Below are positions 85 through 2,368 of a stretch of DNA of 64,000 bases, piece after piece. This DNA is from an uncultured delta proteobacterium (GTDB taxonomy: Bacteria > Myxococcota > Myxococcia > Myxococcales > 40CM-4-68-19). The notes beneath the pieces are model-generated. The model was given only the letters and a program-made list of their open reading frames with translations, searched no databases and was not told where the DNA came from. A program made the translations under genes and the position numbers. The DNA lies in the NCBI GenBank assembly GCA_903911145.1, contig CAIWCD010000030.1:1-64000 (forward strand), in the 5' to 3' direction. Within the stretch, counting starts at the first letter, position 1. Each line of letters starts with the position of its first letter.

Positions 85-426
85 GTGTCACCCCGCGCTC
101 AGGATGATCGCTCCGCCGCGGTTTGCGATGATCGCTTCCACTGGTATCGCGCGGGAAAGACCATCGACGGCAAACACACGCCGTATATGAGCTTCAGCAC
201 CGGGTTTCGGAATACGAATTACAACCGGGACGGCTCTGACGCCGGTGCGGTTGTCTACGCGCTGAAGTCGTTTCCCATGAACGTCTTTGTAACCCCTGAG
301 ATCATGAGATGGGCAGTCGACTGCGTTCGCGCCGCGCGCGACGAGGTGGAGGCAGAAGATCGGACCGGCCGAGCTTCGCCTGCACCCGAAATGCACGCCG
401 CTCGAGCCGCTATAGGAGCTGTTTGA
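85..426 (+). CDS. Hypothetical protein, possibly the 3' end of a longer gene
   Basis: The frame is open from the left edge of the window, and GTG at 85 is only the first in-window start, so the gene may begin outside. Residues from about 20 to 95 look protein-like, with mixed composition and aromatic and charged residues. The first 20 and last 15 residues are low-complexity. I recognise no family. The gene ends tail-to-tail with the collagen-like gene on the other strand, overlapping it by about 17 bases. It could be a remnant or a spurious frame, and confidence is modest. Confidence 0.35.
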   Translation: MSPRAQDDRSAAVCDDRFHWYRAGKTIDGKHTPYMSFSTGFRNTNYNRDGSDAGAVVYALKSFPMNVFVTPEIMRWAVDCVRAARDEVEAEDRTGRASPAPEMHAARAAIGAV

Positions 427-2368
427 TCACCAGCGACGCAGAGACAGCCTGATTCCCTCCCGCAACGGGAGTCGGCGTCAGTGCGACGCTGTTCCCGGTT
501 GGATTGCGGACGCTCAAAAGCGCATTGGGCGAGCTGGTCGTGATCAATACCCGATTCACGATCTGGCTCGCGCCCGTGGCTCGCCCGGCAAGCGTGTCTG
601 GCAGTTCGACCGCGCCGGAGCCGCTGTCGAGGCCAAGCACCAGCTGCCCGGGTTCTCCAATGCTCACCTGCCACGAGACTTCATAGACGCCGACGAGCGG
701 AAGGATGAACGCGCTGGCGCTGGATCGATAGATTCCGTTGGCTGCACCGTCCTGTGGAAACTCCACGGCTGTCGCCGGGGCAATCGTCGCGGAGTTGTCG
801 GGCGGCATCAGGGCGAAGAAATATCCAAACGAGAGAATCGCAGCCTGCGGACCCTCAACTCCTTGAGACCCTGTCGCGCCCGTTGATCCAGCAACTCCCG
901 TTAACCCGGTGGGCCCAGTGAGCCCGGTAACTCCCGTTAACCCGGTGAGCCCAGTGAGCCCGGTAACTCCCGTTAACCCGGTTGGCCCCGCTGCGCCTTC
1001 CGGCCCGGCGAGTCCCGTCGCACCCTGGACGCCCATCTCGCCGAGGATTCCGGGCGCTCCATCCAGTCCGGTCGCGCCAGTCAGACCGTTGCAGACATAG
1101 TCAATACCCGCTGCCGAGGCATATCCAACCCCGCCATTTGCGCAGATCCCTCCTGCGAGTTCGGGTATGGCGACGACCGATTGTCCATTGAGCCCCGGAG
1201 CTCCGGCGTTCCCGTTGGCGCCGGTATGTCCAGTCGAGCCAATCAGACCGATTGGTCCAGTCGCGCCAGTTGTGCCGGCCGGTCCCATCAACCCGATTGG
1301 CCCAACCTCGCCTGTGGGTCCGAAGCTTCCCGGACTGCCTGCCGCTCCCTCGCTGCCTGTGGCACCGGTGGCGCCAGTGAGTCCGATGGCACCATCAAAT
1401 CCAGCGAGGCCATTAGAACCAGAAAAGCCGATCTCTCCGCGTTCGCCTGTCACCCCGGCCAGACCCGGCGCGCCGTCGCATACATAGTCGTTGCCAGAGG
1501 CGGACACATATCGAATGCCACCTGCCATGCAGTTCGGTCCGACGGGCTCTGCGAACGCCACGACCGACTGCCCAGCGGTTCCATTCGACCCGGGGCTGCC
1601 ATTCACTCCCATCAGGCCAGTGTCTCCCTGGCTCCCGGTTGCTCCCTGAATACCCGAGGCACCAGTGGCGCCGGTCGCTCCAATCGAGCCGGGTGCTCCA
1701 ATCGAGCCCGGTGAACCGGCGGTTCCGGTTGCACCATGGAGTCCGGAGGGGCCGAGCTCTCCGGTGGGGCCGATTGGACCTGCCGCGCCAGTCCCGCCAT
1801 TGGCGCCTGTTGCGCCGGTGGACCCCGTTGCGCCATTCAACCCGATTGCGCCATCAGAGCCATTTGCGCCGTCATGCCCGGTTACGCCATTGGCGCCGGT
1901 TGCCCCGTTAGAACCTGTTGCGCCAATCGCTCCCGTTATCCCCTTTAATCCCGATGCGCCGGTTGACCCGATGACACCTGTGGCACCGGTTGCGCCGAGA
2001 GCGCCAGGTGCGCCGCCGATACCCGTTGCTCCTTGCGTGCCGGGATATCCAGGTAGGCCAATCGAGCCCGCCGCCCCTGACGCGCCGGTGACGCCATTGC
2101 AGAGATAGTCAACGCCGGTGATCGATGTGTATGCAATTCCACCGGCAAGGCAGTTCGCGCCAGGCGGCTCGATTGCGCCGAAAACCGACTGTCCCGGAGA
2201 GCCCGCGGCTCCATCGACGCCCGCCAATCCGACCGCTCCGGTCGCGCCGACCACTCCGACGAGCCCCGGTTGGCCGGCTGCTCCAGTTGCTCCGGTCACG
2301 CCCTGTCGCTCACTTGCCTGGCCGCATGCACAAAAGAGCAGGATCAATCCGACGCTGATCGGCTTCAT
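410..2368 (-). CDS. Collagen-like lipoprotein with three Cys-pair inserts and a BclA-type C-terminal domain
   Basis: This is a 652-residue predicted surface protein. A hydrophobic N-terminus ends near Cys 15 and looks like a lipoprotein signal, although the lipobox is atypical. Long Gly-X-Y tracts rich in GAT, GPT and GLT follow, as in bacterial collagen triple helices. Three similar inserts of about 35 residues interrupt the tracts. Each starts GQSV, has a Cys, a GG pair, a G-x-D and then Y-[LV]-C-[ND]-G, the pattern I associate from memory with DUF7151-type modules. The last 140 residues, starting near [10 protein letters not shown], resemble the trimeric C-terminal beta domain of Bacillus BclA/ExsF-like proteins. 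The start chosen is the ATG at 2368 rather than an upstream frame extension, because it directly precedes the signal sequence and has GGGAAAG upstream. Anchoring and trimerisation are inferred; the ligand is unknown. Confidence 0.8.
900..982. repeat. 36-bp near-perfect tandem repeat inside the collagen coding region
   Basis: Two consecutive 36-bp units (900-935 and 936-971) differ at one base, and a partial third copy runs to about 982. Each unit encodes four Gly-X-Y triplets on the minus strand, so copy-number changes keep the reading frame. This looks like a recent slippage expansion of the collagen stalk. Confidence 0.75.

Follow-up and report, generated by a model that had tools for sequence, protein, structure and literature searches.

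In the Bacillus cereus group, BclA and F-BclA (Pfam family PF18573; structures 1wck and 9h38) combine a collagen stalk with a C-terminal jelly-roll head, and BclA and C1q heads are trimers on collagen stalks. The "ALMPPDN" collagen-like proteins of Bacillota (Priestia plasmid pBM300, Paenibacillus, Clostridium and others) carry heads of the same family as the protein described here, with 51-61% identity among the matches listed. C1q-like heads at the collagen tips of spore appendages have been presented as presumed adhesins (PMC11952670). On Gram-negative surfaces, the Burkholderia Bcc-CLPs and BCAL1524 are described as collagen-like lipoproteins (PMC10224339, PMC10303873), BCAL1524 being reported to promote autoaggregation (PMC10303873). 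A further type of surface fibre, the mosaic adhesive trimers (MATs) of the predator Bdellovibrio, bears differing tips, including TNF/C1q-like and C-type-lectin ones; MATs are described as having beta-helix fibre parts, in a main text that nowhere uses the word "collagen" (PMC10769870).

The window analysed here is a stretch of 64,000 nucleotides that forms the beginning of a 203,050-base contig in a 5.3-Mb genome, whose host belongs to the order of Myxococcus but to another family (f1, Myxococcus being placed in f4). It contains a gene for a 652-residue collagen-like protein (Table 1) which, like BclA and F-BclA, has a collagen stalk and a C-terminal jelly-roll head, but differs from them by its lipoprotein-type signal, the Cys modules of its stalk, its Gram-negative host and a score below the PF18573 cut-off. 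It also differs from the Burkholderia proteins, which are described by Pfam family PF15984 and for which the available excerpts of the articles mention neither a BclA head nor a Cys module (PMC10224339, PMC10303873). With its Gly-X-Y collagen stalk the protein is not a MAT, but it may, by analogy, work like one. No description of this architecture in myxobacteria was found among titles and abstracts of the open literature, a scope that leaves most subscription journals and bioRxiv outside. We hold with moderate confidence that the protein is a trimeric surface lollipop, in which a lipid-anchored collagen rod interrupted by intrachain-disulphide nodes would carry a ligand-binding, probably adhesive, head.

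Table 1. Features of the collagen-like lipoprotein gene and of its neighbours in the window (residue numbers refer to the 652-aa protein)
Feature	Position	Strand	Basis or remark
Collagen-like lipoprotein gene, 652 aa	410..2368	-	stop codon 410-412; intact frame
Signal peptide ending in the lipobox LLFCAC; residue 15 is the predicted acylated Cys	2324..2368	-	sequence and lipobox pattern
Gly-X-Y run 1, residues 23-58	2195..2302	-	sequence
Cys-pair module 1, residues 59-92, Cys73/Cys90	2093..2194	-	sequence and profile
Gly-X-Y run 2, residues 93-265	1574..2092	-	sequence
Cys-pair module 2, residues 266-299, Cys280/Cys297	1472..1573	-	sequence, profile and model
Gly-X-Y run 3, residues 300-394	1187..1471	-	sequence
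Cys-pair module 3, residues 395-428, Cys409/Cys426	1085..1186	-	sequence and profile
Gly-X-Y run 4, residues 429-508	845..1084	-	sequence
BclA/C1q-fold head, residues 515-652, no Cys	413..826	-	profiles and predicted model
CHASE3-PAS-histidine kinase-receiver protein	2458..5169	-	same strand, 89 bp upstream of collagen ATG
Secreted-looking protein, no Pfam match	5189-6121	-	by eye
Secreted-looking protein	6646-7425	+	by eye
Collagen-like lipoprotein, BNR/Sortilin-type propeller head, no Cys module	7599..9734	+	Pfam and pattern
Second collagen-like lipoprotein, BNR/Sortilin-type propeller head, no Cys module	9744..11882	+	Pfam and pattern

The frame is read from the ATG at 2368, where the signal sequence starts; an alternative TTG at 2404 would add 12 residues. 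A short hydrophobic signal is followed by a match to a PROSITE-like lipobox pattern, and we take it to be of lipoprotein type; its Phe at -3 is not the commonest form. The six Cys after the signal all lie in the modules, as three pairs, and the protein presumably sits on the cell surface. Its stalk, which would form a collagen triple helix, is divided into four Gly-X-Y runs, of 13, 59, 33 and 27 triplets (132 altogether, the GQS openings of the modules included), and the protein passes the cut-off of the Pfam Collagen family (PF01391) at 187.3 bits against 27.2. At the published collagen rise of 2.8 Å per residue (PMC11952670), its 396 Gly-X-Y residues would span about 110 nm. Proline occupies 8% of X and 9% of Y positions, charge amounts to 6% and Thr to 35% at Y, a low-Pro, Thr-rich-Y composition also observed in several Bacillota stalks and in many other stalks of the host genome. 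Because the stalk is poor in Pro and charge, the stability of the triple helix is uncertain without, for example, sugar on the Thr-rich Y positions, a composition that suggests glycosylation.

The first-pass annotation had reported three matching Cys-pair inserts in the collagen rod, and these are confirmed: each is 34 residues long with its Cys 17 positions apart, and a profile made of 24 rows from outside the window scores them at 54.2, 47.7 and 40.9 bits; 1000 shuffled versions of the same protein reach 12.5 at most. The short-module profile matches 27 of 60 genomes (that of the host included) and 19 of 28 genera; some of the matches span half of the profile and may correspond to the long form of DUF7151 (PF23657). 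The window protein misses the cut-off of this family (18.6 vs 27.2 bits) and its modules, with 16 residues between the Cys, are devoid of the long-form loop D..N...G.L..GE. Two other proteins of the host genome, with exclusively short modules, pass DUF7151 as wholes (64.0 and 53.2 bits), no single stretch of them passing. Both forms are found side by side in L152, L155 and L179, intermediate lengths are found in L178, and the profile-profile comparison of the module with DUF7151 gives a probability of 94.6, over 15 columns only. The best reading of these sequences is that the modules are putative short DUF7151 domains without the insert of the long form, which resembles a calcium loop by eye. 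A model of module 2 built from 10 rows displays strands at 11-15, 25-29 and 34-38 with middling confidence (mean pLDDT 76.8, pTM 0.53), and a fold search with it returned no match at E <= 0.001. In the related locus L101 (frame 1-1914), two of the four Cys modules are identical in sequence, which points to a recent duplication inside the stalk.

At least two Cys are present in 56 of the 56 distinct module copies across the loci examined, as found with Cys-rich profiles that would under-count Cys-less copies, and the spacing in the 53 full-length copies is 17 in 38, 18 in 12, 19 in one and 22 in two. As judged from the sequences, this pairing would fit an intrachain disulphide in each module at least as well as interchain cross-links; most simply, each conserved pair would close its own module. 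The opposite arrangement, which the first-pass annotation had raised alongside hinges, would have the Cys of a pair bonded across the three chains, or from one rod to the next, so as to lock and cross-link the stalk; it appears unlikely to us: three chains would bring six Cys to every node and a Pro-poor stalk could need covalent help, but the pair spacing is nearly fixed, no single-Cys copy was found among the 56 (with a profile that favours Cys), and the module is also encountered in two frames, L176 and L180, without an evident Gly-X-Y run in the sequence seen, so that no three-chain partner is obvious there. Own-chain disulphides are kept as our preferred reading of the modules.

Against a profile of 39 relatives from which the window was left out, the 138-residue head reaches 190.0 bits, and against one of 30 Bacillota-type rows it reaches 169.2 bits; the highest scores among 1000 shuffles are 7.7 and 8.8, respectively. 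A chance origin of the module and head matches is rejected by the shuffles. Its AlphaFold2 model (40 rows; pLDDT 92.5, pTM 0.87) retrieves F-BclA 9h38 first with Foldseek (E 2.6e-9), ahead of B. anthracis BclA 1wck (E 1.8e-7), and the VIA-align Z scores are 20.6 for F-BclA, 18.6 for BclA and 16.4 for C1q, with 125-132 residues aligned to the BclA structures at an rmsd of 1.6-1.8 and 20-21% identity. The profile of the head family reaches 9h38 at 1.8e-11 and the BclA chains at 0.001-0.0033. The earlier proposal of a BclA-like C-terminal tip is thereby upheld for the predicted fold (Z 18.6-20.6) and by the family profile, but not for membership in PF18573 (21.9 of the 38 bits of the cut-off). 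The annotation had named a profile match of the tip as the test of this proposal: PF18573 (BclA_C) does match the head alone (E 1.7e-4), but under its cut-off, and is absent from the Pfam results for the whole 652-residue protein. A loose Pfam scan of the head yielded only BclA_C and a 15-bit UBAP2-Lig match, both below cut-off, an NCBIfam scan of the head alone gave no match, and searching the PDB sequences with it turned up only chance matches (best E 0.26). Among 40 members of the head family, 31 are matched by PF18573 at E <= 0.01 (best 5.6e-12) and one matches C1q. On its predicted model, the head is of the BclA fold in a sister branch, and by that cut-off not a PF18573 member; it would trimerise.

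A scan of the genome collection retrieved 376 head relatives, the best 80 of which are mostly from Bacillota and also include Myxococcus, Myxococcales MAGs, Holophagaceae, a planctomycete and scattered others. Together with those of a viral scan, 88 frames were read, 19 of which run off their locus with N-termini beyond the sequence seen. A head tree, the bootstrap of which is not fully settled, was built from 49 rows: the window head, three plasmid loci, three further genome loci and 42 of the 88 loci read, the other 46 of which include L023 and L094. It places the window head in a clade of 12 rows from Myxococcota, Holophagaceae and the planctomycete versus 37 others, with a support of 100/99 and an unsettled placement inside the clade. 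The 37 rows are mainly from Bacillota with a few from other phyla, and the split does not strictly follow the phyla. Within the class, the head is present in eight of 147 genomes, including that of the host, where the BclA-type head occurs once; the other seven all belong to family f4, whose named members are Myxococcaceae, and the head is absent from the sole other genome of the genus searched (88% complete).

The Bacillota-type frames differ from the window protein in that no Cys module was seen in any frame read, 19 of the 88 being cut. The Myxococcus-type proteins (L007, L010, L096, L098, L099, L102) share with it collagen and one or two modules, and their heads, where compared, are 64-72% identical to its own, but instead of the lipobox they have a signal peptide and, at the N-terminus, a domain of some 130 residues; the stalks of L007 and L010 are moreover Pro-rich, unlike that of the window protein. 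In two of these Myxococcus species, a small predicted lipoprotein is encoded just upstream of the collagen/BclA-type gene (L007:2220-2726 and L010:1702-2322; 67% identical), and that of L007 has no Pfam family match. A lipobox-like signal (by eye), collagen and the head occur together, as in the window protein, in three other loci: L101, from family f4, but with four modules; L024, a Myxococcales MAG, with one module and a short collagen; and L023, a MAG labelled Proteobacteria, with two modules, the second of which occupies the place of the first ~28 residues of the head. Because the design recurs in these three related loci, the combination of module and head is, as far as its sequences indicate, a patchy family and not a one-off.

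The nearest heads in the tree are those of Myxococcus species, which form spores, and the closest solved structures are Bacillus spore proteins. Both points speak for a coat protein of myxospores, which would be produced in sporulation and not on vegetative cells and would correspond, in a Gram-negative host, to the BclA nap of the exosporium. We regard this as quite unlikely, considering that the head branch extends to MAGs labelled Holophagaceae and planctomycete, which to our knowledge are not recognised as spore formers, and that no exosporium leader family was found at E <= 1 in general Pfam and NCBIfam scans of the protein, whose N-terminus reads as a lipoprotein signal. A head derived from a phage receptor-binding or tail protein, in a gene that would be prophage debris, could be suspected because phrog_30509 ("collagen like minor tail") is weakly matched (E 3.6e-4) and eight viral-labelled contigs have related heads. 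Such an origin was rejected as very improbable: a search of 50,697 phage records returned nothing at E <= 1e-3, the near neighbours are a sensor kinase and further secreted proteins, the lipoprotein signal is intact, and no phage genes were recognised in the rest of the window (ORF starts, by eye). An assembly or frame artefact is scarcely credible: the contig does start 409 bases past the stop codon and several collagen frames of the genome are cut by contig ends, but the signal, the three modules and the head all stand in a single unbroken frame, and this architecture recurs in other assemblies.

According to the surface-lollipop reading that we favour, the lipid on Cys15 would anchor the protein in the outer membrane, and the jelly-roll head would trimerise at the C-terminus and nucleate the collagen triple helix. 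The three DUF7151-like modules would break this helix, each as a three-stranded beta unit closed by a disulphide of its own chain, and the three units meeting at each node would form a defined knob or hinge. Held away from the cell, the head would offer a surface that binds a ligand and is probably adhesive; a role in adhesion is suggested only by analogy with Burkholderia BCAL1524, the C1q-like tips of spore appendages and the tips of Bdellovibrio fibres. The protein would be one of a genome-wide set with similar lipobox-collagen stalks and different heads.

In the window itself, the adjacent sensor-kinase gene is a possible operon partner of the collagen gene. A conserved sensor-kinase neighbour is unsupported, as a rough look at five Pfam-scanned stretches around L007, L010, L011, L024 and L023 revealed no histidine kinase; a receiver-GGDEF-EAL protein lies beside L024 on the other strand, and a TamB-like gene upstream of L011. 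The two secreted-looking proteins of Table 1, similar-looking products of diverging genes, are located between the sensor kinase and the propeller-headed collagens.

The host genome contains 66 PF01391 matches, counted as 22 frames with two alternate frames omitted; one of the 22 (L163) is possibly spurious. In a comparison of 60 genomes, the host included, the host has 64 matches, G001, of the same genus, 49 and the other 58 genomes 0-32, a genus-level expansion. A lipobox-like signal, according to the lipobox pattern, is present in 14 of the 22 frames, the rest being cut by contig ends or narrowly off the pattern, and in 16 of 27 when alternate and DUF7151 frames are added. The first-pass annotation had considered lipoprotein anchoring of such a protein unusual, which is overstated given these 16 frames, its recurrence in L101, L024 and L023, and the collagen-like lipoproteins described in Burkholderia (PMC10224339, PMC10303873). 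Pfam scans, in which L155 and L163 were left out, name BNR/Sortilin propellers, a PQQ propeller, RCC1 and an MtrC/MtrF-like cytochrome as heads, with DUF1554 below cut-off; further heads were labelled by eye from sequence as NHL-type, beta-helix-type and lectin-like.

Several frames of this set have particular features. That of L161 (G000:C35:81500-86500, frame 1633-5001) combines a lipobox-like signal, 36 Gly-X-Y triplets, nine CXXCH motifs and an MtrC/MtrF-like domain (51.6 bits); it is, by these motifs, a predicted multihaem cytochrome on a collagen stalk, and continues past the stretch seen. L160 (G000:C29:54500-73434), which lies at a contig end, is an open frame of 6142 residues that contains collagen; the portion of it that was scanned also has Ig-like/invasin, STIG1-like and FG-GAP repeats. 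In L167 (G000:C9:12500-17578), invasin-type Ig repeats lead into a GST/GAT collagen run that the end of the contig truncates. Collagen repeats stand at the contig ends of both L158 (end of C39) and L159 (start of C31), one of which has a lipobox-like signal and the other a PQQ propeller; the two may be pieces of a single gene that the repeat has broken up.

Through this protein, a head fold known from spores, that of BclA, is predicted on lipoprotein-type stalks in a Gram-negative group with predators among its members. The protein also provides a first structural reading of a DUF7151-type module, as a predicted disulphide-closed spacer between collagen segments. The genome-wide variety of heads on collagen stalks is the unexpected part and the one most worth following. 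As a tentative possibility, the lineage may run a collagen-based equivalent of the Bdellovibrio mosaic fibres, in which heads (BclA/C1q, several kinds of propeller, RCC1, beta-rich and a nine-haem cytochrome) would be exchanged by recombination through the repeats of a shared lipoprotein-collagen stalk, with short DUF7151 nodes in some. Each cell would then display many surface lollipops of tunable length for contact with prey, kin or substrate, even an electron-carrying one. If this genome-wide set is real, it would be a ready system in which to study the exchange of heads on a shared type of rod by bacteria, and materials work could draw on it for bacterial collagens that have nodes by nature.
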